From Nodularia sp. NIES-3585 (GTDB taxonomy: Bacteria > Cyanobacteriota > Cyanobacteriia > Cyanobacteriales > Nostocaceae): 64,000 nt of DNA. Location: positions 2,761,270 through 2,825,269 of the forward strand of contig NZ_BDUB01000001.1 in assembly GCF_002218065.1 (NCBI RefSeq), in the 5' to 3' direction. The notes under the pieces were generated by a model. That model had not been told where the DNA came from and ran no database searches. It saw only the letters and a list, made by a program, of their open reading frames with translations. Of the stretch, positions 6,316 to 51,707 are shown piece by piece (the first letter of the stretch is position 1; each line of letters begins with the position of its first letter). A program made the position numbers and the translations under genes.

Positions 6316-6973
6316 GAAAATTTCTCCTGTCTTTATATATCTTTGACCGTGGTGTAAAAAAAACCGCAATATATTACATTTTTTTGCGCCAACTATGCCA
6401 TTAGGGTGACAAAGCTTATAATTATCTACCTAATTAACATTCTAGTAAAACTACAGGGCAAATAGTCTTAACTCTTTAGTGCAAGCACTCGCAACTTGTA
6501 GACATCAAGAATTTATTATTAAATTTTACGGTAACTAAGAGCAAGATTCTGAAATAATGCTTAATAAAATTTAACATTTTCTGGGGTACTAAAAAAAATT
6601 AAGTAGGGTGTGTTGTCGCGCAGCGCAACGCACCGTCAAAACTTCAGGCGTTGCTGATTTGAAGATGAATAGGATTTTTAATGATGTCACAACCCCTGTA
6701 AAGATGTTCCATGTCACGTCTTTACACCTAAATTCATCCTTGATTTGGGCGTTGCCCAAACTGCGGCTTTTGGTGTCAACAATTCCAGGTGCTTTAGCCT
6801 ACGGCATAACACGCCACTACGAAGAATTTATATTTCTTGATGTACATTGAATTTTTCTCGCCGAGTTACTTACTTAAAATTATCCAGTGGAAGAAGTGTC
6901 ATAGCCTATGGGCAGACAATAGCAGTATTCAGTTAAATTTCCTACAGACTTTTAATACAGGCAAACTTGGGAG
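6316..6973. other. Repeat-rich intergenic region without a convincing gene
   Basis: This 658-bp gap holds a TAGGGTGTGTTGTCGCG block at about 6604-6640, reappearing inverted at about 8127-8160. A module at about 6660-6745 reappears inverted at about 13005-13100. A third module (GTCAACAATTCCAGGTGC, then GGCATAACAC, then TTCTCGCC) at about 6774-6870 reappears inverted at about 14885-15000. An 80-codon frame at 6608-6850 crosses all three and is judged spurious. Confidence 0.6.
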
Positions 6974-7642: not shown

Positions 7643-8003
7643 ATTCCATCAAGTTGTAAAAGGGATCTTCTAAAAAGAAGGTGCGATGTTCCAAGGGAGA
7701 ATCAACAAAGCGATTTTTAGGTGATTCCCGAAAAACCAAATTTTGCTGACGTACCTTTTCTAGTAATTCCTCCCAGTCATATTCCTGAATAAAAATTAGT
7801 CCAAAGTGTCTGGGGTATATAGTCCGCTGGGGTGAAAGGGTTTCTTTGGTGACGTGCGCTACTAACTGATGACCGTAGAGGTTAAGTATCAGCGCTTGGG
7901 GATTTTCACGCCCAGGGATGCAGCCGAGTCTATCGACATAATATGCTTTGGTTTGGGCAATATCAGTCACGGGAAAAGCTAGATGAAATAAAGTTTGGTT
8001 CAT
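7572..8003 (-). CDS. VOC (glyoxalase/bleomycin-resistance fold) family protein
   Basis: 143 residues with the paired beta-alpha-beta-beta-beta layout of the vicinal oxygen chelate fold. HLAFPVTDIAQTKAYYVDRLGC is the first half; RHFGLIF and FLEDPFYNLMEFKYY form the second, supplying plausible metal ligands H7, a second His and Glu. The substrate cannot be told from sequence. The gene converges on the lipase and overlaps its 3' end by 71 bp. Confidence 0.85.
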   Translation of the reverse strand: MNQTLFHLAFPVTDIAQTKAYYVDRLGCIPGRENPQALILNLYGHQLVAHVTKETLSPQRTIYPRHFGLIFIQEYDWEELLEKVRQQNLVFRESPKNRFVDSPLEHRTFFLEDPFYNLMEFKYYRHPEAIFGSYQYTEIGDRA

Positions 8004-33358: not shown

Positions 33359-34222
33359 ATGTGGACTGAAATTGATACTCATATTAGCCAAGTAACTGGC
33401 GAAAAATTTCAAACTCAGCACAAGCGCAGTGTGAGTGGTGGCTGTATTAATCAAGGTTATGCTGTTGCTGATGGTAATTTGACTTATTTTGTCAAGCTGA
33501 ATCAAGCCTCTCAAGTTGCTATGTTTGAAGCTGAGGCGTTGGGTTTAAAAGAAATGCTAGCTACAAATACCATTCTTGTACCCAAACCAATTTGCTGGGG
33601 TACGGCTGGAAACTCTAGTTATATAGTCTTGGAATGGCTGGAAATGGGAGGTAGTAACAGCAAATCTTCCCAAGAAATGGGACGCAAGTTAGCAGCGATG
33701 CACAAAGCTACTAATAGCGAAGGTTTTGGTTGGAAAATTAATAATACTATTGGTTCCACACCTCAAATCAATACCTGGACAGCAGACTGGGCCGAATTTT
33801 ATACCCAACATCGCTTGAGTTATCAATTTCAGTTAGCTAGGCGACGGGGTGGGAGTTTTCCCAAACAAGAGCAATTACTTGCAGCTATTCCGGAACTATT
33901 GGCAAATCATTCAGTGCAACCATCTTTAGTACATGGTGATTTATGGGGTGGAAATGCTGGGTGTACTGTGTCAGGCGAACCGGTAATATTTGATCCAGCA
34001 ACTTATTTTGGTGATAGAGAAGTTGATATTGCCATGACAGAATTATTTGGTGGTTTTTCAGCCGATTTTTACCAAAGTTATCACGAGGTGTTTCCTTTAG
34101 ATGCAGGTTATGAGCAGAGAAAAACTCTGTATAACCTGTATCACATTCTCAATCACTTTAATTTATTTGGCGGTGGTTATGCTTCCCAAGCTAACCGGAT
34201 GATTGACCAGATTTTACGCTAG
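33359..34222 (+). CDS. Fructosamine kinase family protein
   Basis: 287 residues with the fructosamine-3-kinase/ketosamine-kinase layout. KRSVSGGCINQGYAV is the Gly-rich nucleotide loop, YFVKLN carries the ATP-binding Lys, LVHGDLWGGNAG (~190-201) is the catalytic loop with Asp, and FDPATYFGDREVDIAMTELFGGF holds the metal-binding Asp. These enzymes phosphorylate sugar-modified amines so that the adduct falls off (protein repair). Confidence 0.9.
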   Translation: MWTEIDTHISQVTGEKFQTQHKRSVSGGCINQGYAVADGNLTYFVKLNQASQVAMFEAEALGLKEMLATNTILVPKPICWGTAGNSSYIVLEWLEMGGSNSKSSQEMGRKLAAMHKATNSEGFGWKINNTIGSTPQINTWTADWAEFYTQHRLSYQFQLARRRGGSFPKQEQLLAAIPELLANHSVQPSLVHGDLWGGNAGCTVSGEPVIFDPATYFGDREVDIAMTELFGGFSADFYQSYHEVFPLDAGYEQRKTLYNLYHILNHFNLFGGGYASQANRMIDQILR

Positions 34223-34238
34223 AGGATTGCAGAAACGT

Positions 34239-34580
34239 ATGAACACACGATTAGTCGATTCACTGCTGCGAATCATTACCTCACTGACTCTGGAGGAACG
34301 TCTTTTACTGCAAGAACGCCTCAACAGTATGGCAATTCAACTAACTCCAGGTGTTTGCGGTGGACAACCACGCATTCGCAACACCCGTATTCCTGTGTGG
34401 ACATTGGTAGCTTTTCGCCAGCAGGGGGCAGACGATGCAGAATTGCTGCGTAATTATCCCACCCTCACCAAAGATGATTTAACCGCAGCATGGACATACT
34501 ACGCACAGCACGAGGACGAATTAAATTGTGTGCTGACTGCTATCAATGAGGATGATAATGCTGAAGCTGTACTCGAATGA
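34239..34580 (+). CDS. DUF433 antitoxin (pair 1)
   Basis: I use the ATG at 34239; the frame opens inside the preceding gene. 113 residues, with an N-terminal helical extension and the DUF433 core (TPGVCGGQPRIRNTRIPVWTLVAF and LLRNYPTLTKDDLTAAWTYY), a small DNA-binding helix-turn-helix fold. It overlaps the DUF5615 gene by 23 bp. DUF433/DUF5615 pairs behave as toxin-antitoxin modules by context. Confidence 0.8.
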   Translation: MNTRLVDSLLRIITSLTLEERLLLQERLNSMAIQLTPGVCGGQPRIRNTRIPVWTLVAFRQQGADDAELLRNYPTLTKDDLTAAWTYYAQHEDELNCVLTAINEDDNAEAVLE

Positions 34581-34938
34581 GAACTTTCCAATGGATATGG
34601 TGTTAGAACTGCGCCAGTATGGTTATGATGTCCTCACCTCCCAAGAAGCTGGACAAGCTAATCAAGGAATACCGGATGAGGATGTTCTCACCTTTGCTAT
34701 CGAAAACGAGCGAGTTGTCATTACCCTCAACCGTGAGGACTTTATCGCTTTACATCGTAATGGTATTTCTCATCAGGGCATGATCATTTGTAAAACCGAT
34801 AGAGACTACAAAGGACAAATACAAGCTCTATACGCCTATCTACAACAAATAGAAGACTTGAAAAATCGCCTGATTAGAGTTAAAAAGCAGAATCAACCTA
34901 AATCTAGTCAGCAAATTTTTATTATTCAGGAATATTAA
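34558..34938 (+). CDS. DUF5615 PIN-like protein (pair 1 toxin candidate)
   Basis: 126 residues from the ATG at 34558. LKLYSNENFPMDMVLELRQYGYDV, DEDVLTFAIENERVVITLNREDF and GMIICKTDRDY are the conserved DUF5615 blocks. The acidic residues in YSNENFP, DEDVL and NREDF match the PIN-like active site. It is the longest of the three DUF5615 copies, with a basic tail (RLIRVKKQNQPKSSQQ). Confidence 0.8.
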   Translation: MLKLYSNENFPMDMVLELRQYGYDVLTSQEAGQANQGIPDEDVLTFAIENERVVITLNREDFIALHRNGISHQGMIICKTDRDYKGQIQALYAYLQQIEDLKNRLIRVKKQNQPKSSQQIFIIQEY

Positions 34939-34981: not shown

Positions 34982-35848
34982 TTAACTCCTGGTTTCGATA
35001 TCGTATAACTGGCATAAAGTGAGCAGTTTCTGTTTCAGGCGATCGCGCACATTTTCTGGCATAATCACTACACAGTCTGGCGCATACTGCATCACCTCAC
35101 GGCTAAACCAAAAGGTACTGGATACACGCCTAATAACTCGCCGCACTTTGGGTTTATCTGGTAGCCATTCATTGATATTGTCTTCTGGTTTCGCTTTATA
35201 GCCAAAAGCCAAGCCACCAAATATGTGCATTTCCACCTCTACCTCATCTAAGTGAGTACGCCATTCCCCAGGAATAGAAATCACCGCCGCATCTGTAATT
35301 CTGTCTAAACGCAAACTCCTGTTGTGAATGAGTTCGGGTATATCAAAGCTTCCTTCCGTCTCTTCACACCAGCAATCAAGATATTGGCGCTTTTCGTGGG
35401 GTGCAACCTTAGCATGGCGGACGGTAAAAGTAAATATATGCCCGGCTGGATCTTGATAGGAAAGTTGGAAAGGTTGCTGTCGCCGGATGTAGTTATCTAT
35501 TTGTAAGCGCCAAGGTGGGGGGAGGTTTTCTAGAAAGCTTTCGATTTCATTTCGCAGTGGGATTGATATTTCGCTGCGTTCGAGAAGCAAGTTAGCAATA
35601 ATTTGCGCTTGTTCAACTTGTCCAATGTCGGTTAATGCACCAATACACCGATGTAATGCCCTAATGCGGGCTTCTGTCCAATCATTATTATTACCGATAA
35701 GTAACTTACGTTGAGCGATCGCTTCTACCAGTTTCGAGATATTCGGGCGATCGCCCCACATCATACCAAATTGTAAGGCGATCGCTTCTAGTTCCGCTTT
35801 ATCGCGTTCTCTTAAAGAGAGAGTTATAGACTGACCTTTCCGACTCAT
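34982..35848 (-). CDS. WYL-domain regulator beside the I-D CRISPR-Cas locus
   Basis: I start at the ATG at 35848 (MSRKGQSITLSLRERDKAEL), which begins a ribbon-helix-helix-like DNA-binding segment; the upstream extension is not conserved-looking. The 288 residues end in a WYL-type ligand domain (QPFQLSYQDPAGHIFTFTVRHAKVAPHEKRQYLDCWCEE and ...SLRLDRITDAAV). In Synechocystis the divergent WYL gene next to its I-D locus represses the cas operon, and the same divergent position here implies the same job. Direct repeats directly upstream of its start may be its own operator. Confidence 0.85.
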   Translation of the reverse strand: MSRKGQSITLSLRERDKAELEAIALQFGMMWGDRPNISKLVEAIAQRKLLIGNNNDWTEARIRALHRCIGALTDIGQVEQAQIIANLLLERSEISIPLRNEIESFLENLPPPWRLQIDNYIRRQQPFQLSYQDPAGHIFTFTVRHAKVAPHEKRQYLDCWCEETEGSFDIPELIHNRSLRLDRITDAAVISIPGEWRTHLDEVEVEMHIFGGLAFGYKAKPEDNINEWLPDKPKVRRVIRRVSSTFWFSREVMQYAPDCVVIMPENVRDRLKQKLLTLCQLYDIETRS

Positions 35849-35849
35849 A

Positions 35850-35873
35850 TTTATACGGACACTTTTATACGGA
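35850..35873. promoter_or_regulatory. Direct repeats upstream of the WYL regulator
   Basis: TTTATACGGA occurs at 35850-35859 and again at 35864-35873 (14-nt period), immediately upstream of the regulator ATG on the other strand. A related TTACGGACACT lies at 35925-35935. The position overlaps where a ribosome would bind. Repressor binding is inference. Confidence 0.45.
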
Positions 35874-35998
35874 TATATCTTGCCAACCTTTATTTTGCAT
35901 GGCAATATAAGAAGTAACAACCAGTTACGGACACTATTTAAGTTTATTGGAGAACAGGAATCATTGCGAAGAATCATCACAAATTTGGAGAAGTTTCA

Positions 35999-36241
35999 AT
36001 GACTAAACACAATTTACTATCTCGAATTTCCATAGATCCAAATATTTGTTTCGGTAAACCTTGTATTAAAGGTCATCGTATATGGGTTTCTTTAATCCTG
36101 GACTTGCTTGCAAGTGGAGAAACAGTTGAAACGATTTTAGAAGAATATCCGGGTTTAGAAAGAGAGGATATTTTAGCTTGTATTGCTTATGCTGCGGAGA
36201 TGACAAGAGATAACTATGTAGAAATTCCTCTTGGGCTGTAA
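35999..36241 (+). CDS. DUF433 antitoxin (pair 2)
   Basis: 80 residues with SIDPNICFGKPCIKGHRIWVSLILDLLASGETVETILEEYPGLEREDILACIAYA, the complete DUF433 helix-turn-helix domain. A TTGGAG ribosome-binding site precedes the ATG. It is followed 14 bp later by the toxin-like partner. Confidence 0.88.
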   Translation: MTKHNLLSRISIDPNICFGKPCIKGHRIWVSLILDLLASGETVETILEEYPGLEREDILACIAYAAEMTRDNYVEIPLGL

Positions 36242-36255
36242 AAGGAAACAAAAAA

Positions 36256-36552
36256 GTGAATATTAAACTTGATGAAAATCTTGGTAGTCTGCGAGTATTG
36301 ACATTACTAGTTCTTGCCGGACACGATGTTGCAACTGTACGAGAACAAGGCTTAATTTCCACTCCTGATGAACAATTAATTGATATTTGTCATAGAGAAG
36401 AGAGATGTTTAGTAACTATAGATAGAGGAGTTGGAAATCGTCTGAAATATCAGCCTTCCAACTATACAGGAATAATAGTCATTCGTTTACCAGCCCGCCC
36501 TAACTTTGAAGATTATCGTGCAGTTACAGAAACTCTAATTGCTGGACTATAA
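36256..36552 (+). CDS. DUF5615 PIN-like toxin candidate (pair 2)
   Basis: 98 residues from a GTG with AAAGGA upstream. NIKLDENLGSLRVLTLLVLAGHDVATV, TPDEQLIDICHREERCLVTIDRGVGNR and GIIVIRLPARP carry the DUF5615 acidic pattern (Asp-Glu-Asn, Asp-Glu, Asp). It is upstream of cas3' by 86 bp on the same strand, so read-through into the cas operon is possible. Confidence 0.85.
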   Translation: MNIKLDENLGSLRVLTLLVLAGHDVATVREQGLISTPDEQLIDICHREERCLVTIDRGVGNRLKYQPSNYTGIIVIRLPARPNFEDYRAVTETLIAGL

Positions 36553-36638: not shown

Positions 36639-38816
36639 ATGACGCAAGAATACAAAATTACTCTCAAGCCTGTTTATTCTCAAACCATCCCCACACCTGA
36701 CGGAGTGAAATTACCTAAACATTGGTCGCTTTCTTGGCATCAATTAGCTACCTTAGAAGCACTACGCAATCCAGATATTGAAGTAGTATTCAACACAGCC
36801 ATGACAGGCGATGGTAAAAGCTTGGCTGCATATTTAGAAGTTCTCCAAGGTGAATTTTCCGCCATTGGACTTTACCCAACTAATGAACTCGCCCGTGATC
36901 AAGAAACGCAAATTAGAGGATATATTGAACAATTCCAGCCAGAAGATGAGCCGCGTGTAGTTAGATTAAGTGGGGCTGATTTAGAAAACTATGCCGAAAA
37001 TGAAGGATTGAAAAAAGCAGCAGCAATTTCTACCCTCACTAGCCAAAGAGAGGTATTACTCACTAACCCTGATATTTTTCACTACTTGCATCGAGGGGCT
37101 TATATCATTCATGGCGATAGCCCGGATAAGTTATGGGGCAGAATTGATAAAGATTTTGACTTATTTATTTTCGATGAATTTCACGTTTTTGCTGCTCCCC
37201 AAATTGCCAGTGTAATTAACACAATGTTGTTAATTCGCTGTACAAATCGCCGCAAAAAATTTCTGTTTCTCTCAGCTACACCAGACACAAATTTAATTAG
37301 CAGATTAGAACAGGCAGGATTTCGTTGTCAAGTTATCAATCCTGTTGCCCAAAATAAATATCAATTTCCCGAAACAGAAGAAGAAGGAAAGCAGCTACAA
37401 ACCAAGGGCTGGCGGCAGATAGCGCGAATAATCTCATTGAATTTTATTCCTTTAGAACCTGCTTTTAAAGCATCGGAAACTTGGCTAAAAGAAAACAGTG
37501 ATTTAATTTTGGCTCAATTCCAAAAGTATCCAGGTAGTAAAGGAGCAATTATTCTCAATTCAATTGCAGCAGTCAAACGTCTAACGGTATTTTTTCAGGA
37601 AATATTCAAACCTTATCAATTAACAATAGGAGAGAATACAGGACTTTCGGGAAAAAGCATAAAAGAGCAAAGTCTGATGGCTGATTTAGTTATTGGCACT
37701 AGCACAATTGATGTGGGTGTTGATTTTAAAATCAATTTTCTGATTTTTGAGTCATCAGATGCAGGTAACTTTATTCAGCGTTTAGGGCGCTTAGGCAGAC
37801 ATGAAGGCTATGAGAAAGATGGTCAAATAATTAAGTTTGAAAAATTTACAGCTTTTGCCCTTGTGCCTAACTTTTTAGTAGAGCGTTTATTTCAGGTAGA
37901 TTCACCACCATTAGAGGTAAATAGTATTTATGAACGACCATTTTTTCACGATGTAATTAGTGAGAAGTATCGACAAATCAATGATTTTCGCGGTTATTAT
38001 CGCCGTTGGGCTTTTGTGCAATCATTTCGGCTGTATTATAAATTGAGCGATCGCACAATTAAACAACAGTATGCCCAAAGCCGAGAACAGTTTCAAAAAG
38101 CCTGTGAGGACGTATTTGAAAGCAAGCTGAAGTCCATAGCCGGACGTGTTTCAGGATGGGCGAAAGACTGGAAAGCACTGTCAGGTAAACCAGGAAATCC
38201 CATAGCTGACGATGCGGCTAGTTTTCGCGGTTCCAGTCCTTTGCAATGTGGTTTATACGATTTAACCGAAGAAAATGCAGCAGACAGGTTTAAAACCTAC
38301 GATTTACCAGGTATTTTGGGCAATTTAGAAATTGAAATGTGGACAGAGGCGGGATTTATACGGACACTTAAAGAAACCGCACAACGCACAGGACAACCCA
38401 TAGCCAAAGGTAGATTTGCTCATTGTCTAGCATTTATGAAGTTGCGTTCCTACCGTGAGGAACGGCTGAACTGGAAATTTACCTATCCTGGAGACTTACA
38501 GCCAATAGCCGACGCTTGGAAAGTTCAGGTTTTAACTGGCGTAGAAATTTGGCAACCTGACAATCAATGGATTGGTGCAATTAACAAACGACTGAAGAAG
38601 GAAGGTTTGGTTTGTTATGTAATTCGCCGTCCTGTATCTGAGGTGCGGATGCGGTTACGGCTACCAATGCACTTTCAGATTTATCCCATTAGTGATCAGT
38701 ATAGCTTTCATGATGTTAGTGCGCCGTATGCGATCGCTTTTGGTCACTCTGCATTGCTGCTAGATACCCTTGCATATACCTTTAAAAGCACAGGAGATGA
38801 GATATGGGTTGTTTAA
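36639..38816 (+). CDS. cas3: Subtype I-D helicase Cas3'
   Basis: 725 residues of superfamily 2 helicase without an HD nuclease domain, as expected for I-D. Walker A is TGDGKS (57-62), motif II DEFH (179-182), motif III LFLSATPD (~209-216), and motif VI lies in FIQRLGRLGRH. It unwinds target DNA after Cascade recruitment; the nuclease is supplied by Cas10d. It is the first cas gene, but 2.2 kb of other genes separate it from cas10d. The start at 36639 follows a GGAGAG site. Confidence 0.93.
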   Translation: MTQEYKITLKPVYSQTIPTPDGVKLPKHWSLSWHQLATLEALRNPDIEVVFNTAMTGDGKSLAAYLEVLQGEFSAIGLYPTNELARDQETQIRGYIEQFQPEDEPRVVRLSGADLENYAENEGLKKAAAISTLTSQREVLLTNPDIFHYLHRGAYIIHGDSPDKLWGRIDKDFDLFIFDEFHVFAAPQIASVINTMLLIRCTNRRKKFLFLSATPDTNLISRLEQAGFRCQVINPVAQNKYQFPETEEEGKQLQTKGWRQIARIISLNFIPLEPAFKASETWLKENSDLILAQFQKYPGSKGAIILNSIAAVKRLTVFFQEIFKPYQLTIGENTGLSGKSIKEQSLMADLVIGTSTIDVGVDFKINFLIFESSDAGNFIQRLGRLGRHEGYEKDGQIIKFEKFTAFALVPNFLVERLFQVDSPPLEVNSIYERPFFHDVISEKYRQINDFRGYYRRWAFVQSFRLYYKLSDRTIKQQYAQSREQFQKACEDVFESKLKSIAGRVSGWAKDWKALSGKPGNPIADDAASFRGSSPLQCGLYDLTEENAADRFKTYDLPGILGNLEIEMWTEAGFIRTLKETAQRTGQPIAKGRFAHCLAFMKLRSYREERLNWKFTYPGDLQPIADAWKVQVLTGVEIWQPDNQWIGAINKRLKKEGLVCYVIRRPVSEVRMRLRLPMHFQIYPISDQYSFHDVSAPYAIAFGHSALLLDTLAYTFKSTGDEIWVV

Positions 38817-38817
38817 C

Positions 38818-38917
38818 GTTTCAATCCCTGATAGGGATTTTAGCCACTGATTTACAGTGGGAGGGCGTAAGCCTGCAAGTGCAGCAACGGAAATTTCAAT
38901 CCCTGATAGGGATTATT
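38818..38917 (-). CRISPR. Two degenerate CRISPR repeats in reverse orientation
   Basis: Two 22-24 nt pieces identical to the 3' part of the main array repeat lie on the minus strand at 38818-38839 and 38894-38917. The first keeps the ATTGAAAC end; the second has its last base changed. The pieces are 54 nt apart. Subtracting the missing 15-nt 5' half of a repeat leaves about 39 nt, a normal spacer length here, so this is one repeat-spacer unit with decayed 5' halves. It follows immediately on the cas3' stop. Confidence 0.75.
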
Positions 38918-39146
38918 CGTTACCCTCTGTATTCAATTATATAGAAATGTGTTCTCGAAATTAAACTTGTCTTCCGATGCTGAACTAATAGTTTTGTGTT
39001 AAAGTCTACTTGGTGGCGTAAGCCTTCAAGTACAAAGACGGAGAGTCGCTGTTCCGATGCTTGCATCCGTTCGGCGTAACACCTTTTTTTGAACGTTAAA
39101 GGGGATAAACCACTAGTCAGACAAATCCAATAATGGAGATAAAAAA
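38840..39146. other. Non-coding region between cas3' and the small QLVLF protein
   Basis: Besides the half-repeats, GGCGTAAGCCTGCAAGTG at about 38864 and GGCGTAAGCCTTCAAGTA at about 39014 head a 28-nt direct repeat with five differences. The second copy runs into a palindrome-rich stretch (GTTCCGATGCTTGCATCC, then GTTCGGCGTAAC). These may be dispersed cyanobacterial palindromes or a structured RNA. No gene is visible. Confidence 0.5.
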
Positions 39147-39335
39147 ATGAGTGGTGAACAATTAGTTCTCTTTGATGTAGAAATTTACACAGTTAAGGAA
39201 GTTCTTCCAGTCAATAGCAAAGAATTTCACGTTGAAGAAGTTCAAAACTGTGACGAATGGAAGCAACTCGAACTAAACTTATTCCCACAACAGCCTTATC
39301 AAATTTCTAGAAAGTTATTGATATTGGCTGCGTAA
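39147..39335 (+). CDS. Small protein with QLVLF motif
   Basis: 62 residues, acidic, beginning MSGEQLVLFDVEIYTVKEVL and ending in LELNLFPQQPYQISRKLLI. QLVLF fits the QLxLF consensus of sliding-clamp-binding peptides, and ELNLF near residue 46 is a second weak version. A GGAG motif sits 8 nt before the ATG, which supports it as a real gene. No family is recognised, and its place inside a CRISPR-Cas locus is the only functional hint. Confidence 0.55.
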   Translation: MSGEQLVLFDVEIYTVKEVLPVNSKEFHVEEVQNCDEWKQLELNLFPQQPYQISRKLLILAA

Positions 39336-39407: not shown

Positions 39408-39650
39408 ATGAACGAACAACAACTTCTAGAAAGAATCACAGCCAACAGTCAAATCTTTGGCGGTAAACCTATTATTCGAGGTCGCCGCCTAGCGGTTGAA
39501 CATATTTTAGGGATGCTTGCAGCAGGAGATACTATGGAAACCTTGCTAGAAGCTTATCCCTGGCTAGAACGAGAAGATGTACAAGCCTGTTTAGTTTATG
39601 CACGGAGGCTAGTTGGTCATGAGCGAATCGAACCATTACTAATAGAGTAA
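39408..39650 (+). CDS. DUF433 antitoxin (pair 3)
   Basis: 80 residues with ITANSQIFGGKPIIRGRRLAVEHILGMLAAGDTMETLLEAYPWLEREDVQACLVYARRLVG, a full DUF433 domain close in pattern to pair 2. It is followed 5 bp later by the DUF5615 gene. Confidence 0.88.
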   Translation: MNEQQLLERITANSQIFGGKPIIRGRRLAVEHILGMLAAGDTMETLLEAYPWLEREDVQACLVYARRLVGHERIEPLLIE

Positions 39651-39655
39651 CCAAT

Positions 39656-40015
39656 GTGAAAATACTGCTAGATACTTGTGTCTGGTTTGGAGTGCGTAAT
39701 AATTTACTCGCTGCTGGCTATGACGTAGTTTGGAGTGGAGATTGGTCAAAAGATCCAGGTGATGAAGAAATTTTAGCAACTGCTTACGGTGAAGGTCGAA
39801 TTTTAGTAACCCTTGATAAAGACTTTGGAGAATTAGCGATTGTTCGGGGAAATCCCCACTGTGGTATTTTGCGCTTAGTTAATCTCATTACCAGAGAGCA
39901 ATCGCTTGTTTGTCTACGAGTTATTCAACTCTATGGTGATGAATTATCGTCAGGTGCAATTGTAACTGCGGAATTAAACCGAGTCAGAATTAGACCACCA
40001 GACAATGATGGCTAA
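39656..40015 (+). CDS. DUF5615 PIN-like toxin candidate (pair 3)
   Basis: 119 residues from a GTG. KILLDTCVWFGVRNNLLAAGYDVVW, DPGDEEILATAYGEGRILVTLDKDFGEL and GILRLVNLITREQS show the PIN-like fold with acidic residues in LLDTC, DEE and DKDFGE. It ends just before a strong hairpin, so this pair should be a separate transcript from the genes that follow. Confidence 0.87.
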   Translation: MKILLDTCVWFGVRNNLLAAGYDVVWSGDWSKDPGDEEILATAYGEGRILVTLDKDFGELAIVRGNPHCGILRLVNLITREQSLVCLRVIQLYGDELSSGAIVTAELNRVRIRPPDNDG

Positions 40016-40030
40016 AATCCAAGAAATGAC

Positions 40031-40055
40031 TTTCTCGCACCAATGGTGCGAGAAA
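40031..40055 (+). terminator. Strong hairpin between toxin pair 3 and mntA
   Basis: TTTCTCGCACCA is followed after one base by its exact complement TGGTGCGAGAAA, a 12-bp perfect stem. It is followed by AT-rich sequence but no long T-run. Confidence 0.7.
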
Positions 40056-40149: not shown

Positions 40150-40602
40150 ATGCAAACTAATACCCCAACAATTGCAGAACTTAAAGAACTTTCCTTACAA
40201 CTTCCTGAAAGAATACCTTATTTAAAAATGTTAGTCCTGTTTGGTTCTAGAGCGACTGGTAACACACACGCAAATAGTGACTGGGATTTTGCTGTTTTGT
40301 GTGATGAAGAACAGCGTCACGCTTGCACCAAAAATAATACTGGGCGTTTGTTTGAATTACCGATGCTGATTGGCGAAGTATTGAAGATAAATGCTGATCA
40401 TATCGATATTGTACAACTTAATTATTGTTCCGAATTAATAGCACATTTTATTGCTCGTGATGGAATTATGATATTTGAACAATATCCTGAACAATTTAAG
40501 TCTTTTAAAGAAAATTCCTTAAAAAGTCAATCAGAGTTAAAGAAATTCCGTCAAGAGCAACATCGAATTATTCAAATAGAACTAAATAAGTGGGGAGCAT
40601 GA
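40150..40602 (+). CDS. mntA: MntA-type nucleotidyltransferase antitoxin
   Basis: 150 residues from the ATG at 40150 (GGAG ten nt upstream; a GTG at 40114 is possible). The minimal nucleotidyltransferase motif GSX10DXD is perfect: G32-S33 and D44-W-D46 (GSRATGNTHANSDWDFAV). Proteins of this family adenylylate the HEPN toxin HepT on a tyrosine and so neutralise it. It overlaps hepT by ATGA. It sits inside the I-D cas operon between cas3' and cas10d. Confidence 0.9.
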   Translation: MQTNTPTIAELKELSLQLPERIPYLKMLVLFGSRATGNTHANSDWDFAVLCDEEQRHACTKNNTGRLFELPMLIGEVLKINADHIDIVQLNYCSELIAHFIARDGIMIFEQYPEQFKSFKENSLKSQSELKKFRQEQHRIIQIELNKWGA

Positions 40603-41042
40603 GTAATATAGAACCAGAAATAGTGTTAGTTAGGTTGAGGTTAATTCTCAAATATTCCAATACTTTGGAAGAATTTCGCTCTACTATCCTTGAAGACTTT
40701 TTAGCTGATTTTCGTCAACAACTTGTTGTGGAAAGACTTTTACAATTAATGACTCAAGCAGCGATAGATATCAATGACCATATATTGTCAAAGCTAAATC
40801 CTGGAAAATCGCCAACTAACTTTGAGGCTTTTATTGAACTTGGTAAATATGGTGTCATTTCACCCGAATTAGCAGCACAATTAGCACCATCAGGAGGATT
40901 AAGAAATCGGCTGGTTCATGAATATGATGATATAGATCCAAAGGAAGTTTTTAAAGCAATTAGTTTCGCATTACAACAATATCCGCTTTATGTACGACAA
41001 ATAAATACGTATTTAATTTCATTGGATGTAGATAATGACTAA
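40599..41042 (+). CDS. hepT: HepT-type HEPN RNase toxin
   Basis: 147 residues, all-helical. The HEPN active-site motif RX4HXY is complete: R102, H107 and Y109 (RNRLVHEY). In characterised HepT the tyrosine is modified by MntA. Its first codon overlaps the mntA stop (ATGA), and its last eight bases contain the start of cas10d (ATGACTAA), so mntA, hepT and cas10d form one translationally coupled string. Such overlaps favour a functional link and are not expected for a chance insertion. Confidence 0.9.
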   Translation: MSNIEPEIVLVRLRLILKYSNTLEEFRSTILEDFLADFRQQLVVERLLQLMTQAAIDINDHILSKLNPGKSPTNFEAFIELGKYGVISPELAAQLAPSGGLRNRLVHEYDDIDPKEVFKAISFALQQYPLYVRQINTYLISLDVDND

Positions 41043-44000
41043 AAAAACCAAACCCAGCGAAGAAAATCTACCACCATCTTTATTGAAAAATAATACTGAA
41101 GACTTAGAAGAAGATTTCTTCAATCAAGACTTTGGCTTTGATGGTGATTCCTCAGACCGCACTATTGAAACTGAAGGCGAATTACTCACACTCAAACTAT
41201 TGCGAGAAGCTATTCATTCTCAAAATCCTGATGATCAAGTAATGGCTGATTTTGCCGAGTATGTTTTACCAAATTTGCTAAAGATAGCCATTGGTGTCAC
41301 CGCTAAAGGTGGTAAATTCTTTGATGAAATCGACCAACAGCGAGAAGCAGAAGGTAAAACTAAAGTTAGGCGAGATAATGCGGCTGACCAATCGCTAAAT
41401 ACTCACTTACTCAACGGGTTATTTCCTGCTAATTTAATAGAAAAGCGTTTAGAAAAACTCAATACCACAGTGCGGCGAGTGGTGAAAGAACGAGAACGTC
41501 GCTTAGTAATTGCTGGGTTTATTTTACATGATTTTGAAAAGTTTCCTGATGCACCAGAAGATTGTCGCAAGTTACCGTTAACAGAACATCGTCAAATTAT
41601 TGATCAAAAAGTTAGCCAGTTAGGACTTGATAAGTTTATCAACCCAGATGATTCAGAAGCTTATCGAGAGTATTTAGATGATTTATTGTGCATGGCTTAT
41701 AATGCTCAACGACGCTGGGATACTAACTGGAATTTTTCCGAATTTGGTTTAAATCCTGTTCTCAAAGACCGCACCCTTCGCAGTCTGTCTGATTTAACTT
41801 GTTTGGCTGATTCCCTCGCCTCAATTGTTAAACATCCTCAAGACGCAGAAAATACCAGACTCCAAGAAATTATCCATAATCTAAGTGATGGACAGTTGAA
41901 ATTTACCTATCACAGCATTGCTGAGAATAGAGGTGTTTTAACTAATGTGGTGAATAATGCTTTAATTAAAGCTCATACAAGTCTCAACACTGATGAAAAT
42001 ATCTATTATGAACCTTTGTTATATCTGCCAACAGGTGTAATTTATATAGCTTTGCGTAATGCGCCACCTATTGCACAAGCAGACTTATCAGACCGTGTAG
42101 TTGATAGTATTAAATCACTTTGTGCAGGTCAATTGCGCCTCAGACAAACAGGGTTTGGTAGAGATGGTAAAGGCATGAAATATGCCGAATATTACAATTT
42201 ATTCTTTGATGATTTAGGTTTAATGCGAGTTGCTTTAGATGCTACATTACGTATATTAAATTCAAATAAACCTTCTGTTGCTAAAAGTCGAAGTGAAAAT
42301 CTGATTAAATTTCAGCAAAAAAATGTTTTATCTCCTGATTATGACTTTGAATTTGCAGATGATATCCGCATCGACCAAATAGCCGAATTTGGTGATTTAA
42401 TCAGTCGGAAGATTTGGGAAGAAACAGTTAAGCGCATTGATGTTGCTCGGAAGAAAGATAAAAAACTGCCAGCAGTTACAGATTTATATTTAACTCAGAA
42501 GGTTGCAGAGTTTTGGAATTTAGCAGAATATTTACCCCCCATTCGAGAAATTGAAGATATTAATGAAAGTCTCAAAGAAAATAAGTTAAAAGGAAATACT
42601 GGCGGAGTACCTTATGAATGGTATTACCTCGCAGCAAAATATCTCGAACTTCATCCTGGTATTGAAAATGTCCGCGAAACTTGTCAGCAAGTTATAGATT
42701 ACTTAGCAACTTTGATTTCTCCAATTATTTCTCAGTATGAATTACCTGATGGGTGGGATGATTTAAGGCTGTGGGTAAATCGCGTTGTCATGTTACCAAA
42801 TACAAATCAAGAATTATCAACTGAAACTCAAGTTAAGACATTTTTAGAGGAGTTAAGTAACTACAATGCTGCCAAAAAACCAGGACGAGGACGGCAACTT
42901 ATTTGCTCAATTTCTCACTCAGCTTACACTGTGACTGAGCAAATGGAATCAGCAGTTTTATTTACGCCGCAAGTTTATACAAATAAGCAAATGTTAGGAG
43001 GTTCTAACGCCAAGCGTAATATCTCTAGTATTGCTGGTGTGGAGATGATGCTGAGGCAAATATTGATGAATCAAACTCAAGCTGTTGGTAAACGATTTGA
43101 AGATGGTAAATATCGCTATCTCTATTTTTACCCGACTTATTACTTTACACCAGAAACTAATAAGTTTTTGCAGAAAGCTTACAACGGCATTGCTCAAAGT
43201 CGCTTTGATACCAGCGTCCGCAATCATTTTATCAGTAAGGATTTACAAGCTAATTTAGCCAAAGACAATTACCAAAGTGTAGATAGTTTCTTAATTGACG
43301 AAAATCTCCAAGCTGACAAAGACCGCACATTTAAACTTTCTTATCCTGAAGACCAGCCTTTAACATTTTACTTCATGGCATTGCCGCCAGGAAGAGATAG
43401 CACAGATACAGAATCTTGGGTAATGCCAACTTGGTTAGCGTTTGCTTTTCCGATGATTTTAGATGTGAAAACTGTGGTTTCTGAGTCACCAATTCCACCT
43501 TTTAATGATGGTTCGGAATTTGAGGAAAGCGTTTTTTTAGATAGTGCGCCTCATGCTTTCCGGGCTTTGGTAAAAAGAGACAGATTTCGTCTTGACTACA
43601 TTCTGGAAGGTTGGCAAGAAAACGGTATTCAATACCCTGCACCCTTGAATGTGCTTACAGCCGCTTATGCCATTCATTTAGATGTGAATGCTAGACAAGG
43701 TAAAACTGGTTACGATGCGAACTGGGGGAAATTTACAGAACTAGCAAAGGATTTTGAAACCAGTCCTTTGTATGTGTTTGCTTATCTCAATCGTTGGGTG
43801 CGTAACCAGGGAGTAGAAACGGCACGCATTGAGAAAATTAGGCTTTATGTCTATCATTTTTACCCTTGTTTTGACCCTTATGTTAAATATGAGAAAAATA
43901 TGGAGCAATTAATTGTGGGAGAAGCGTCAAGCCTGAATCATCCGAAAAAATTAACAGATTTGTATCGCAAATTTTACCGAGCTAATAAGCGTTATAATCC

Positions 44001-44364
44001 CAAGTCTAATGCTGTGTTGAAACCCATAGATATCGCTGCTGAAACTATTCTTAAAGCTGAATCAAGTGTGTTTCAAGGAGAAACATTAGTAGCGGCTGTG
44101 GCGGCAGAAGTCTTTAAACTCATGGATCGCGTTCATTCCTCTACTGCTGAAGGACGTTGGGTAATGAGTAGACGGGAAGAAGAACGGCAAGCTGTTCTAG
44201 CGTTTGCGAGTTATTTTGTACAGGAGGTATTTGAGAAATCATTTGCAGGCGATCGCGCACGTTTAGCAGGTCGTCAACTCAACTTAATTCGAGATACCTG
44301 TGAATTTCTTTATCGCCTTGAAGATGACCAAGAAAATGCAGAAAGAGTTGCTGAAGCCGAATAG
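41035..44364 (+). CDS. cas10d: Subtype I-D large subunit Cas10d (Csc3) with HD nuclease
   Basis: 1109 residues, normal for the family. An HD-type nuclease site lies near the N-terminus (FILHDFEKFPD, H165-D166, with upstream His residues such as NTHLLNG). The rest is the divergent Cas10-like body ending in a helical C-terminal region. In I-D the Cas10d HD domain, not Cas3, does the cutting in the interference complex. It begins inside the hepT stop. The C-terminal 154 codons probably also encode Cas11d from an internal start. Confidence 0.95.
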   Translation: MTKKTKPSEENLPPSLLKNNTEDLEEDFFNQDFGFDGDSSDRTIETEGELLTLKLLREAIHSQNPDDQVMADFAEYVLPNLLKIAIGVTAKGGKFFDEIDQQREAEGKTKVRRDNAADQSLNTHLLNGLFPANLIEKRLEKLNTTVRRVVKERERRLVIAGFILHDFEKFPDAPEDCRKLPLTEHRQIIDQKVSQLGLDKFINPDDSEAYREYLDDLLCMAYNAQRRWDTNWNFSEFGLNPVLKDRTLRSLSDLTCLADSLASIVKHPQDAENTRLQEIIHNLSDGQLKFTYHSIAENRGVLTNVVNNALIKAHTSLNTDENIYYEPLLYLPTGVIYIALRNAPPIAQADLSDRVVDSIKSLCAGQLRLRQTGFGRDGKGMKYAEYYNLFFDDLGLMRVALDATLRILNSNKPSVAKSRSENLIKFQQKNVLSPDYDFEFADDIRIDQIAEFGDLISRKIWEETVKRIDVARKKDKKLPAVTDLYLTQKVAEFWNLAEYLPPIREIEDINESLKENKLKGNTGGVPYEWYYLAAKYLELHPGIENVRETCQQVIDYLATLISPIISQYELPDGWDDLRLWVNRVVMLPNTNQELSTETQVKTFLEELSNYNAAKKPGRGRQLICSISHSAYTVTEQMESAVLFTPQVYTNKQMLGGSNAKRNISSIAGVEMMLRQILMNQTQAVGKRFEDGKYRYLYFYPTYYFTPETNKFLQKAYNGIAQSRFDTSVRNHFISKDLQANLAKDNYQSVDSFLIDENLQADKDRTFKLSYPEDQPLTFYFMALPPGRDSTDTESWVMPTWLAFAFPMILDVKTVVSESPIPPFNDGSEFEESVFLDSAPHAFRALVKRDRFRLDYILEGWQENGIQYPAPLNVLTAAYAIHLDVNARQGKTGYDANWGKFTELAKDFETSPLYVFAYLNRWVRNQGVETARIEKIRLYVYHFYPCFDPYVKYEKNMEQLIVGEASSLNHPKKLTDLYRKFYRANKRYNPKSNAVLKPIDIAAETILKAESSVFQGETLVAAVAAEVFKLMDRVHSSTAEGRWVMSRREEERQAVLAFASYFVQEVFEKSFAGDRARLAGRQLNLIRDTCEFLYRLEDDQENAERVAEAE
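43900..44364 (+). CDS. cas11d: Internal small subunit Cas11d within cas10d
   Basis: An in-frame ATG at 43900 (codon 956 of cas10d) is preceded by GAG six nt upstream and opens a 154-residue helical product starting MEQLIVGEASSLNHPKKL. In Synechocystis the I-D small subunit is made from such an internal start in cas10d, with a product of about this size. Exact start not proven; a later Met (MDRVHSS) is the only other in-frame candidate of use. Confidence 0.6.
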   Translation: MEQLIVGEASSLNHPKKLTDLYRKFYRANKRYNPKSNAVLKPIDIAAETILKAESSVFQGETLVAAVAAEVFKLMDRVHSSTAEGRWVMSRREEERQAVLAFASYFVQEVFEKSFAGDRARLAGRQLNLIRDTCEFLYRLEDDQENAERVAEAE

Positions 44365-44423: not shown

Positions 44424-45434
44424 ATGTCATTACTCAAAACCGTTGAATCCAAATTCTTTCAATCTGAAATTCCCTACAAACCAATGGGTAAATATGTTCA
44501 TTTCATCACTGTACGCATCACTGAATCTTATCCTCTATTTCAAACAGATGCAGAATTAAATAAAGCCAGAGTACGAGCTGGAGTAAAAGATAAAACTACA
44601 ATTAGCCGTTTGTCAATGTTTAAACGCAAACAGTCTACACCAGAGCGTTTAGTTGGACGGGAATTGCTGCGTAACTATGGCTTGATGACTGCGGAAGAAT
44701 GCGAATATAACGTCAGTTTTGCAATGGATAATCCTGATTGCATCATTTATGGTTTCGCTATTGGTGATTCTGGTTCCGAAAAATCTAAGGTTGTAGTAGA
44801 CACCGCATTTTCAATTACTGCTTTTGACGAATCACACGAAACATTTACTCTCAATGCTCCCTACGAAAATGGTACAATGGCTTCTAAGGGTGAAAATGGT
44901 TCTAAACCGGGTGAAGTCACCAGTCGAATTAATCAGCAAGACCATATTAGACCACAGGTTTTTTTCCCTAGTATCGTTACGCTCAAAGACCCCACTGAAG
45001 CTAGTTTCCTTTACGTTTTTAATAATATCCTCAGAACGCGCCACTATGGAGCGCAGACTACCCGTACAGGTCGCGTTAGAAATGAGTTAATTGGTGTTGT
45101 ATTTGCAGATGGAGAAATTACCAGTAATCTCCGTTGGACTCAAGCAATATATGACCAAATGAAAGCGCACAATACAATTAATCCTCCTGATCCTTTGGAT
45201 GAAGATGATGTAATTACTGCTGCTAAAAGTGCAATTGAGGCTTTAATGGCTGATGAATTTATTGTGCATACTGATTTTATTGGTGATGCGTTTTCACCTC
45301 TACTAAATGAAGTGAAGAAGCTTGTAGGTGATGAAACGGGAATTAAGTCAGTTTTAGAAAAAGCTGATGCAGAAGCAAAAAAATATGCCAGTACACATAT
45401 TAGCAAAAAGAAAACGACTGCTAAGACTAAGTAA
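44424..45434 (+). CDS. csc2: Csc2 (Cas7d) backbone subunit
   Basis: 336 residues of the I-D Cas7 group, which coats the crRNA in the Cascade complex. Family marks are KYVHFITVRITESYPLFQTDAELNKARVRAG, SRLSMFKRKQSTPERLVGRELLR and the NILRTRHYGAQTTRTGRVRNELIGVVFADGE RNA-binding region. A Lys/Ala-rich tail follows. It lies 59 bp after cas10d and 5 bp before csc1. Confidence 0.95.
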   Translation: MSLLKTVESKFFQSEIPYKPMGKYVHFITVRITESYPLFQTDAELNKARVRAGVKDKTTISRLSMFKRKQSTPERLVGRELLRNYGLMTAEECEYNVSFAMDNPDCIIYGFAIGDSGSEKSKVVVDTAFSITAFDESHETFTLNAPYENGTMASKGENGSKPGEVTSRINQQDHIRPQVFFPSIVTLKDPTEASFLYVFNNILRTRHYGAQTTRTGRVRNELIGVVFADGEITSNLRWTQAIYDQMKAHNTINPPDPLDEDDVITAAKSAIEALMADEFIVHTDFIGDAFSPLLNEVKKLVGDETGIKSVLEKADAEAKKYASTHISKKKTTAKTK

Positions 45435-45439
45435 CAGCT

Positions 45440-46147
45440 ATGGCTATAATCTATCGATGTCAATTAGAACTACACGACAGCCTCTATTTTGCTACTCGTG
45501 AAATTGGGCGACTTTACGAAACTGAGCCGATAATTCATAATTACGCTCTCTGTTATGCACTCGGTTTAGTTGATAGCGAAATCTACTCTACTACCGTGGC
45601 TGAAGAACATTCCTATCGCTATTTTTGTCCTGAACAAGTGCCAAAATATGAGGAGCATTTAACACCACTCAATGAACAGCAAATTTACATTACTCCGGCT
45701 CGTTCGATTAAGCATTCAGCCATTCTCAATACCTGGAAGTATGCTAACAACAATTACCACGTTGAAATGGAGAAAACACAGAAGAATATTCCTAGTTTTG
45801 GGAGAGCAAAGGAAATTGCACCAGAAAGTCAATTTGAGTTTTTCGTAATTTCTCAAAAGGACATTAAATTACCTAAATGGATTCGTTTAGGTAAATGGAT
45901 GAGTAAGGCTGAAGTCACATTTACAGAGTTACCTAAGTCTAAGACTATGCAGGGTTTATTTACTTGTAAATATCCTTTAAATCCTTTAGATGTGATGTTT
46001 ACTCATCAAGTTATTAGCTATGATGTGGTAAATATGCCTCCAGTTAGTCTGATTCAAAATGTGCAAATGCGCGGTGAATATTATCAATTTGACGGTATTC
46101 CAGAATTAAGGCTTCCGGCGAGAATGGAATATCGTTTTCGGAGTTAA
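45440..46147 (+). CDS. csc1: Csc1 (Cas5d-type) subunit
   Basis: 235 residues of the I-D Cas5 group, which caps the 5' handle of the crRNA and reads the PAM. RCQLELHDSLYFATREIGRLYETEPIIHNYALCYALGL is the typical N-terminus. Its 3' end overlaps the antisense gene 46106-46558 by 42 bp. After it the operon is interrupted by 1.1 kb of non-cas genes. Confidence 0.93.
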   Translation: MAIIYRCQLELHDSLYFATREIGRLYETEPIIHNYALCYALGLVDSEIYSTTVAEEHSYRYFCPEQVPKYEEHLTPLNEQQIYITPARSIKHSAILNTWKYANNNYHVEMEKTQKNIPSFGRAKEIAPESQFEFFVISQKDIKLPKWIRLGKWMSKAEVTFTELPKSKTMQGLFTCKYPLNPLDVMFTHQVISYDVVNMPPVSLIQNVQMRGEYYQFDGIPELRLPARMEYRFRS

Positions 46148-47292: not shown

Positions 47293-48120
47293 ATGCCTCA
47301 TAGCTTAGTTCTCAACCTACTTCCGCAATCGTCTATCCCTTCTGGGTTTCTCACAGGTAGACATCTGCACGCACTATTTTTGACCCTTGTTAGTTCCGTA
47401 GATCGCACATTAGGCGATCGCCTACATGATTCTACCGCAGATAAAGCCTTCACCCTCTCACCCCTGCAAACTCATTTCCCGTCTCAGGGAACTAGGGGAA
47501 TATCTAAATTACAACACTCACATCAACAACCCATCTCCGCCGGAACGCCTTGTTGGTGGCGCGTTTCTCTCTTAGATGACACACTTTTTAGCCAACTTAC
47601 CCAACTCTGGCTGAATCTTAACCCCAATCATCCTTGGCATCTTGGCCCTGCTGACTTGTATATTACCAGCATTCAAGGCACACCCCAATCTACTCAACCC
47701 TGGGCAAATGCCTGTAGCTACACTCAATTATACGAGCAAGCAAGCGATCGCATCACCAATATAGACTTGAATTTCTCCACACCAACGGCTTTCCGCCAAG
47801 GAAAATTTGACACCACCCTCCCTACTAGAGAATGTGTTTTTAATTCCCTGCTTTCCCGGTGGAACAAATATAGTGGAATTGAATTTTCTCAAATTGCCAT
47901 TGAATCAATATTTCCTTCCTTTGTCAACATTCGTACCGAAATCTTAGCAGACTCCCGCAGCAAATTTATTGGCATTGTCGGAGAAGTTAATTATCGCATT
48001 TTAGGTGAAATTGAACCCATACAAATTAAACAAATTAACGCCTTAGCAGAGTTTGCTTTATATGCATGTGTAGGACGAAAAACCACAATGGGTATGGGGA
48101 TGATGCGGCGACGAAATTAA
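47293..48120 (+). CDS. cas6: Cas6 pre-crRNA endoribonuclease
   Basis: 275 residues. The N-terminal half has HLHALFLTLVSSVD, with a His in the position often used for catalysis. The C-terminal ferredoxin-like half ends in GEVNYRILGEIEPIQIKQINALAEFALYACVGRKTTMGMGMMRR, with the glycine-rich loop of Cas6. It should cut the 37-nt repeat to leave an ATTGAAAC 5' handle. Confidence 0.92.
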   Translation: MPHSLVLNLLPQSSIPSGFLTGRHLHALFLTLVSSVDRTLGDRLHDSTADKAFTLSPLQTHFPSQGTRGISKLQHSHQQPISAGTPCWWRVSLLDDTLFSQLTQLWLNLNPNHPWHLGPADLYITSIQGTPQSTQPWANACSYTQLYEQASDRITNIDLNFSTPTAFRQGKFDTTLPTRECVFNSLLSRWNKYSGIEFSQIAIESIFPSFVNIRTEILADSRSKFIGIVGEVNYRILGEIEPIQIKQINALAEFALYACVGRKTTMGMGMMRRRN

Positions 48121-50397: not shown

Positions 50398-51674
50398 GTT
50401 CCAATTACTAATAATCCCTATCAGGGATTGAAACACAAAATTAGTCCGTGGAATATACGAAGAAATGGGTTCCAATTACTAATAATCCCTATCAGGGATT
50501 GAAACAGCTGATGCCTCAGACTTAGCCTTAGACTATTTCGTTCCAATTACTAATAATCCCTATCAGGGATTGAAACCCGCGCCAAGGTAGCGGCGGCAGT
50601 AGTCGATGAGTTCCAATTACTAATAATCCCTATCAGGGATTGAAACATAGAAATCTTTGTGAATATCTAGATAAACAGTGGTAGTTGTTCCAATTACTAA
50701 TAATCCCTATCAGGGATTGAAACAAAAAAAGAGTATTAATCTTCAAATCGCTAACCTCAAGTTCCAATTACTAATAATCCCTATCAGGGATTGAAACCCT
50801 TCGGTGGTGTTCTTGGGTTCGTTGGCTGTGCCGTTCCAATTACTAATAATCCCTATCAGGGATTGAAACCATTTCCCATCATTTGAGACAATTAATTCGG
50901 GAAAAGTTCCAATTACTAATAATCCCTATCAGGGATTGAAACACAAACAAAAGCAATGGCAGGACTAGCCACAGCTAAAGTTCCAATTACTAATAATCCC
51001 TATCAGGGATTGAAACCTATAATTATTCCTGTTGGTGGTATTGAGTGGCCTGTTCCAATTACTAATAATCCCTATCAGGGATTGAAACCCGAAAGGGTAA
51101 ATCAGCAGTAGGAGTGGCAAAGCTAGGTTCCAATTACTAATAATCCCTATCAGGGATTGAAACACAACTCGCTGTAGTTATATTTGTTCCTGAGCTTCGT
51201 TCCAATTACTAATAATCCCTATCAGGGATTGAAACCCAATTATGGAAATGTGACCATTAGGAAGTAGGGAGGTTACGTTCCAATTACTAATAATCCCTAT
51301 CAGGGATTGAAACCCATCCGCACCACGAAATTCTATGCCCATTGCCTCGTTCCAATTACTAATAATCCCTATCAGGGATTGAAACAACCGGGAAAGCCTT
51401 TGATACTGTGCTTAAAAATTGTTCCAATTACTAATAATCCCTATCAGGGATTGAAACAGCGGGACGGATTGTAAATACCGCCCGTGGCTATGTTCCAATT
51501 ACTAATAATCCCTATCAGGGATTGAAACGATTGAGATTGCTGGAGGGGTCATTCTCCACGCGTTCCAATTACTAATAATCCCTATCAGGGATTGAAACGC
51601 AAAGACTAAACTTTGATTCAATTTATTTCTATGGCGAGTTCCAATTACTAATAATCCCTATCAGGGATTGAAAC
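50398..51674 (+). CRISPR. I-D CRISPR array, 18 repeats and 17 spacers
   Basis: The 37-nt repeat begins GTTCCAATTACTAAT and ends GGGATTGAAAC, with a CCCTATCAGGG stem. All 18 copies look identical, including the last, and spacers are 33-41 nt. The ATTGAAAC end gives the usual 5' handle, so transcription runs left to right from the leader side. Repeat starts are 50398, 50469, 50540, 50610, 50687, 50761, 50833, 50906, 50980, 51052, 51127, 51199, 51277, 51349, 51421, 51492, 51562 and 51638. No spacer matches elsewhere in the window by eye. Confidence 0.98.
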
Positions 51675-51707
51675 TGGAGCGTTTTTATATAATATTTGCT
51701 TTGCGCC

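Follow-up and report, generated by a model that had tools for sequence, protein, structure and literature searches.

A candidate self-guide of the type I-D CRISPR effector complex upstream of an embedded mntA-hepT toxin-antitoxin pair in Nodularia

Why should a ribonuclease (RNase) toxin be encoded within the operon for the effector complex (Cascade) of a type I-D CRISPR (clustered regularly interspaced short palindromic repeats) system, overlapping the gene for its large subunit? The question arises from a stretch of 64,000 nucleotides (nt) of Nodularia sp. NIES-3585 (contig NZ_BDUB01000001.1, positions 2,761,270 to 2,825,269), here called the window, in which the genes mntA and hepT directly precede cas10d. 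Type I-D is the most common type I system of cyanobacteria, present in 63.2% of the surveyed genomes (PMC11903412). A preliminary description of the window had proposed that the arrangement might be a guard releasing the toxin when the effector is disturbed, or might serve addiction to the locus. Here we describe a mini-CRISPR behind cas3' and its matching site upstream of the toxin genes, and weigh what this self-guide might control. The window contains the type I-D gene set cas3', cas10d, csc2 and csc1 together, and the genes in question are the following.

40150–40602, + strand: mntA, antitoxin (adenylyltransferase); ATG at 40150, stop TGA at 40600–40602; identified by Pfam, NCBIfam and motif
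40599–41042, + strand: hepT, toxin (HEPN RNase); ATG at 40599, stop TAA at 41040–41042; identified by Pfam and motif
41035–44364, + strand: cas10d, large subunit; ATG at 41035, 1109 amino acids (aa); identified by NCBIfam Cas10d/Csc3

Read directly from the sequence, mntA and hepT overlap by 4 nt (ATGA at 40599) and hepT and cas10d by 8 nt (ATGACTAA at 41035), as the preliminary description had stated, and its second observation, that both active-site motifs are complete, also holds: GSX10DXD of MntA reads GSRATGNTHANSDWD and RX4HXY of HepT reads RNRLVHEY. HepT belongs to the Pfam family HepT-like (2.4e-24), MntA to Polbeta (4.7e-14) and to the NCBIfam MntA antitoxin family NF047752 (3e-23; 81.7 bits against a cut-off of 60), and Cas10d reaches 1205.7 bits with NCBIfam Cas10d/Csc3. 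Homology and motifs assign the pair to the type VII HEPN/MNT toxin-antitoxin modules, and the toxicity of HepT and its tyrosine adenylylation by MntA are predicted from homology to a solved system. At E <= 1e-3, the HepT of the window is the single match in the Nodularia genome. Bacterial operons often contain overlaps of 4 and 8 nt, and by itself the overlap is therefore weak evidence for a functional connection.

A possible connection lies upstream. Directly past the cas3' stop codon, two ectopic repeat copies antisense to the operon enclose a psi-spacer, and a site matching its seed follows about 55 nt from this mini-CRISPR.

38818–38839, − strand: psiR2, ectopic repeat copy directly past the cas3' stop, an exact match to the 3' part of the array repeat
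38840–38893, − strand: psi-spacer, including the diverged 5' part of psiR2
38894–38914, − strand: psiR1, ectopic repeat copy
38969–38971, + strand: protospacer-adjacent motif (PAM) GTC of the self-target
38972–39006, + strand: self-target, 10 of 12 seed matches with mismatches at positions 6 and 12, drawn with an assumed R-loop length of 35 nt

The repeat core occurs 93 times in the genome with at most 2 mismatches, and psiR1 and psiR2 are the only copies outside arrays; the genome has no exact GTN-TTCCGNTGCTGNAC site other than the self-target. The arrangement recurs in a phylum survey of 386 genomes, 58 with a Cas10d match and 31 with a HepT match, from which 60 stretches were fetched. Among its 42 canonical cyanobacterial I-D loci, counted with the window and excluding the decayed loci L102 and L103 and the B/C-type loci, 35 carry the repeats (one or two copies; both in 17 by that pattern) and 32 a PAM-flanked target. 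All 13 loci with an intact active mntA-hepT pair have repeats, and 12 of them have a target.

The pairing was evaluated in 51 non-redundant repeat-bearing loci from the survey and a named collection, after six had been dropped as the same genome under a second name; loci with no repeat or with a lone repeat directly behind cas3' (including L097 and L126) were also left out. At least 8 of 10 seed positions match next to GTH in 46 of the 51 loci, compared with 1.9% of 5100 shuffled seeds; the five that fall short are L062, L076, L122, L131 and L132. Without any PAM filter, 40 sites with at least 10 of 12 matches were found in 35 of the 51 loci, where about 2 sites are expected per set. The PAM is GTT or GTC at 39 of these 40 sites, and within the 39 the match rate drops to 38%, 36% and 23% at positions 6, 12 and 18. 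The PAM of type I-D has been published as GTN and GTH, with every sixth base flipped out (PMC10212523); the PAM and mismatch pattern found here fits these rules, to which the unfiltered test had not been fitted. Guides and targets also covary. Over all 51 loci, seeds match their own locus at 9.0 of 10 positions on average versus 6.4 for seeds tried in other loci, each seed being free to pick the best site in every other locus, and none of 10000 permutations was as good. An earlier version had chosen the targets by their own seeds, favouring the result, and the repetition without that choice agreed with it. The largest seed family, of 24 loci, gives 354 ordered pairs, which are mutually dependent: the own site wins in 300 of them, ties in 51 and loses in 3, and here too none of 10000 permutations did as well. 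The psi-spacers fall into 11 clusters, 10 of them with a match at the strict level, and the psi-repeats resemble the repeat of their own array where an array lies within reach, in the window as well as among the other loci compared. Computationally, the guide–target pairing is that of a CreR/CreA-type guide in type I-D; production of the CRISPR RNA (crRNA) and its loading into Cascade are predicted.

How regularly does the toxin pair accompany such operons? The HepT matches of the survey lie inside I-D loci in 23 of 31 cases, including one remnant and one fragment, and in one of the 23 a WYL gene separates HepT from the large subunit; four of the 31 have no I-D gene detectable by tblastn with the window proteins, and the remaining four are weak matches. 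In the named collection, which retained the best 80 of 198 candidate relatives, the pair lies within an I-D locus in 36 of 44 cyanobacterial loci, and I-D effector genes accompany it in none of the 36 non-cyanobacterial loci, one of which shows a weak cas1 match; since I-D pairs made up most of the query alignment, this count is biased towards I-D. Contig ends lie close to several of the eight misses among cyanobacteria, and at least 8 genomes are common to both sets. A HepT search of viral contigs gave no relative. Thirty non-redundant loci of the clade of the window were chosen because hepT abuts the large-subunit gene, and 25 of them have an overlap of exactly 8 nt; the other five show a 4-nt gap (two), a 17-nt overlap (one) or a premature hepT stop far upstream (two). 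A universal hepT-cas10d overlap was considered and dropped, since loci of distant clades, which lie outside this set, show other spacings.

The cas3'-cas10d gap of the 42 canonical loci holds an intact active pair in 13, a broken, dead or partial one in 5 and no detected pair in 24, among which L066 retains a short hepT tail remnant. The same gap carries a PDDEXK nuclease of the YhcG/DUF1016 family (full-length in 10 loci, partial in 3), DUF433 (12) and DUF5615 (7). The full-length YhcG/DUF1016 genes, at 7961–8980 of L062 and in nine more survey loci, correspond to PADLOC PDC-S02, and a single 227-aa open reading frame (ORF) at 6810–7493 of L081 appears to fuse DUF433 and MntA in frame. The preliminary description had named I-D loci as the place to look for mntA-hepT between cas3' and cas10d, where these 13 loci have it; it had also set against its own proposal the case of an overlap absent from all other genomes with the pair inserted at random, which the 8-nt overlap in 25 of 30 clade loci contradicts. 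The data support the pair as a recurrent, tightly packed part of I-D operons. For one organism, Aphanizomenon, the association was already known, because its HEPN/MNT system adjoins type I-D (PMC11676413).

What might the target control? Between it and mntA lie the following features.

39147–39335, + strand: small ORF of family S3, 62 aa, the first ORF of at least 60 aa past the self-target
39408–39650, + strand: DUF433 gene (Pfam 3.2e-22)
39656–40015, + strand: DUF5615 gene, presumably PIN-like (Pfam 1.6e-16)
40031–40055, no strand: palindrome upstream of mntA, possible operator or terminator, similar in some relatives

Palindromes of this kind are also present in L137, L133, L126 and L128. 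We give an even chance to the reading that a Cascade self-guide represses the unit holding mntA-hepT and the Cascade genes, and that failure of Cascade induces it. The Cascade-coding half of the operon would then begin, after cas3', with an element of the CreR/CreA kind. The antisense two-repeat mini-CRISPR would yield a guide matching the GTH-flanked downstream site by its seed and not over its full length, and guide-loaded I-D Cascade would bind this site without cutting. Binding would repress a rightward promoter serving the small ORF, the DUF433/DUF5615, YhcG or mntA-hepT cargo, and cas10d-csc2-csc1, resulting in negative feedback on Cascade. A shortage of Cascade, its titration by phage crRNAs or its block by an anti-CRISPR would induce the entire unit, and HepT and Cas10d would rise jointly, given the overlap and the probable translational coupling of their genes; this overlap places the toxin inside the very Cascade-coding unit that the guide appears to control. 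MntA would keep HepT adenylylated as long as ATP lasts, and an infection draining ATP might leave fresh HepT active and stop translation, a back-up from which the cell could benefit; this last step is taken from the ATP-sensor proposal for HEPN/MNT (via PMC11676413). In Microcystis, cas10d alone among the CRISPR-Cas genes rose after phage infection (PMC5780444), a comparison made by gene and in another strain.

In one class, a TTGACA-17-TAGnnT promoter begins 23–37 nt into the protospacer in several loci, and in operons headed by mntA-hepT the guide and target lie upstream of mntA in 5 of 7 loci tested. A more far-reaching version holds that I-D Cascade and the antisense mini-CRISPR might repress their own large subunit together with the toxins (HepT, YhcG, small ORFs), all being induced by anti-CRISPRs or phage titration; this would be a CRISPR-repressed type VII toxin-antitoxin system, widespread in cyanobacteria, with modules swapped to stay ahead of phages. 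We advance it only tentatively.

A number of observations weigh against repression of mntA-hepT by the guide. No convincing rightward promoter was seen at the window's own target, from which mntA is separated by about 1.1 kb and three other ORFs, so that read-through has to be assumed. Repeats are present in 18 of the 24 survey loci without a detected pair and hence do not exist for HepT. Conversely, four named loci (L127, L137, L150 and L183) have an intact pair and no mini-CRISPR, so that at these loci viability does not require repression by the guide. The association of pair and mini-CRISPR (13 of 35 loci with repeats versus 0 of 7 without) is suggestive, with a one-sided Fisher p of 0.058. 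The psi-spacer cluster tracks the small-ORF family in most loci, not mntA-hepT. Finally, no ectopic pair with a target was found in the B-type I-D loci (Synechocystis 6803, PCC 7002, Gloeothece and others) by a search that is insensitive: in L105 and L154 it missed pairs that looser settings recovered, which makes the absence there weak evidence, and L115 has a full array in that place.

The strongest competing explanation, which we consider doubtful and still worth serious attention, is that mntA-hepT is a self-contained mobile hitchhiker in a slot that tolerates cargo, the overlap being compact packing with no link to Cascade. The pair does occupy several operon positions. The large subunits found with it form three lineages, measuring 1109 aa (the canonical one, in the window), about 980 aa and 909 aa; the last is Cas10_Id by PADLOC. 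The pair's usual place in the canonical lineage is between cas3' and cas10d, and in the canonical-like L171 it is between csc1 and cas6; in the other two lineages the pair precedes cas10d or cas3', separates csc2 from csc1, or sits between cas3' and cas6. HepTs 78–81% identical to that of the window occur with all three lineages, next to a Cas10d of about 26% identity to the window's or with none found alongside, and the pair is seen together with YhcG, DUF433 and DUF5615, or instead of them, in one and the same slot. Exchange of segments among close relatives also favours mobility, and one exchanged segment spans the junction of the two genes.

40450–40750, + strand: exchanged cassette, allele X, covering the C-terminal third of MntA and the N-terminal third of HepT; borders approximate

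Compared with three close relatives, the flanking coding sequence of the window is about 87–99% identical and this segment just 55–57%, the three relatives being about 95% alike among themselves across it. Over 29 pairs, the correlation of distances is 0.92 between the C-terminal segment of MntA and the N-terminal segment of HepT and 0.22–0.43 for the remaining segment pairs, with the exception of MntA N-terminal/HepT C-terminal (0.75), and the cassette types are concordant (X-X or Y-Y) in 29 of 29, weakly so in L143. We read the cassette as a putative partner-specificity unit swapped whole across the 4-nt overlap.

Against a mere hitchhiker stand the concentration of the pair in I-D loci, given by the survey and collection counts above, and the persistence of the cas10d junction even where hepT is dead. 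In three I-D loci without mntA (L075, L077 and L122), hepT has lost the catalytic R and H and has kept nearly the whole frame and the cas10d junction, with a stop four codons early in L077. Their pairwise omega of 0.26–0.43, against a live median of 0.14 (range 0.06–0.27; 120 pairs), suggests that constraint is relaxed yet not gone. The three copies probably share one inactivation, and they may be kept purely for coupling. Every full-length active hepT in the tabulated canonical loci is accompanied by mntA, and nonsense-bearing hepT stands next to intact mntA in L064/L128 and L138. Because the mntA-less copies have lost R and H, MntA looks like the real antitoxin, and the order of gene loss fits this role; a Fisher value for active hepT versus mntA was set aside, the broken row L156 being a possible artefact of frame extension.

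Somewhat less probable, in our judgement, is that the self-guide controls only the promoter of the adjacent small ORF, a CrePA-like toxin or regulator, or only the Cascade genes as CreR does, with mntA-hepT insulated or merely downstream. The 18 loci with repeats and no detected pair agree with this. The first gene past the target is in most loci a member of one of three small families (S1, S2 and S3), and this family tracks the psi-spacer cluster in most of them; the largest cluster holds three exceptions, and some loci lack such a gene altogether. S1 models as a winged helix, with weak PDB matches (best E 0.046) and no meaningful match in an NCBIfam search, and S2 resembles a coiled coil by eye. 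S3, found in one cluster of five loci that includes the window, has two QLxLF-like motifs, presumably reminiscent of sliding-clamp binders; it could be a clamp-binding toxin. The small ORF of the window has no Pfam or PHROG match, and its structure model was of low confidence (predicted local distance difference test score 49.6) and was not used. Two points tell against so narrow a role: mntA starts just about 60 nt past the small ORF or YhcG in several relatives, so that a separate promoter would scarcely fit unless it lies inside the upstream gene, and B/C-type loci have a guide and target in front of an operon headed by mntA-hepT-cas10d.

That Cas10d or the assembled effector restrains HepT at the protein level, the direct guard of the preliminary description, agrees with the adjacency and overlap of the genes and is nonetheless highly improbable, since HepTs as similar as 78–81% occur in operons with very different large subunits or none found, the pair also lies before cas6, csc1 or cas3', and mntA accompanies every full-length active hepT in the tabulated I-D loci. 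A guard-like link survives in the form of a self-guide and target upstream of the toxin slot, not through the Cas10d protein; for it the guide would supply a mechanism by which hepT might be repressed and HepT released on failure of Cascade. As for addiction, which may still play a part, type VII chemistry is a covalent modification of the toxin (PMC7641770), and classical post-segregational killing looks weak because a lost locus would leave modified toxin behind.

The remaining features of the I-D locus in the window are listed below.

34982–35980, − strand: WYL/WCX regulator gene, divergent from cas3' (Pfam WCX 3.2e-6)
36639–38816, + strand: cas3' helicase, type I-D (NCBIfam TIGR03158 1.3e-132)
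44424–45434, + strand: csc2 (cas7d; Pfam Csc2 1.6e-122)
45440–46147, + strand: csc1 (cas5d), by homology to a gene of L121 annotated cas5d; no Pfam match
47293–48120, + strand: cas6 (Pfam)
50398–51700, + strand: CRISPR array, 18 repeat copies listed

A WYL/WCX gene occupies this position in most fetched I-D loci. Three DUF433/DUF5615-type pairs flank cas3' (34203–34938, 35999–36552 and 39408–40015), of which the third was run against Pfam. The centre of cas10d (41950–43150) is dimorphic among close relatives, the window being 91–98% identical to L061 and 54–83% to L137 and L133, with identity rising on either side of this stretch; anti-CRISPR- or PAM-related exchange is possibly the cause.

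If repression by the self-guide is true, I-D Cascade would control its own operon and the toxins inside, which would explain the gathering of toxins and nucleases in the cas3'-cas10d gap, tie type VII toxin-antitoxin pairs to CRISPR failure and make it possible to test directly whether abortive infection in cyanobacteria is triggered by anti-CRISPRs. The 46 guide–target pairs are also natural material on the seed, PAM and mismatch rules of I-D Cascade.

The closest known toxin-antitoxin system is HEPN/MNT of Aphanizomenon flos-aquae (7ae2, 7ae6, 7ae8 and 7ae9 in the PDB, entries that we take to belong to the Aphanizomenon HEPN/MNT paper), whose toxin and antitoxin are orthologous to those of the window (phmmer 1.5e-63 and 1.4e-49) and which likewise adjoins I-D. 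By eye its solved proteins resemble cassette allele Y, whereas the window has allele X. The Aphanizomenon MNT is reported to diAMPylate HEPN, and cleavage of transfer RNA has also been reported (PMC11676413). A PDB chain named Cmr1-MntA (9z7q) weakly matches MntA (E 0.003) and hints at a link between type III CRISPR and MNT, on which our literature search found no paper.

The self-guide itself resembles CreR, a crRNA-like guide with partial complementarity to its own cas promoter (predicted in the window), which is stated for types I-B, I-E and V-A (PMC13131331) and for type I and V-A in general (PMC12737573). It differs in belonging to type I-D, in lying antisense behind cas3' and in having toxin and nuclease genes between target and cas10d. 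The term I-D is absent from the main texts of PMC12737573, PMC9458426, PMC8501985 and PMC10097628, and a review of type I-D, in the part covered, describes a DNA-binding regulator (WYL or Csa3) and no guide-based control. What is new here is a putative CreR/CreA-type guide for I-D, a subtype unnamed in the CreR/CreTA literature covered. With CreTA and CrePA the locus shares two ectopic repeats, a psi-spacer and a target upstream of a toxin gene (PMC12737573, PMC9458426, PMC8501985), a likeness that would explain a guard against anti-CRISPRs. The toxins of those systems are small RNAs or a KilA-N protein; in the window, the small ORF has no KilA-N match in Pfam and HepT is a HEPN protein, and this downstream toxin comes with a protein antitoxin of its own, MntA.

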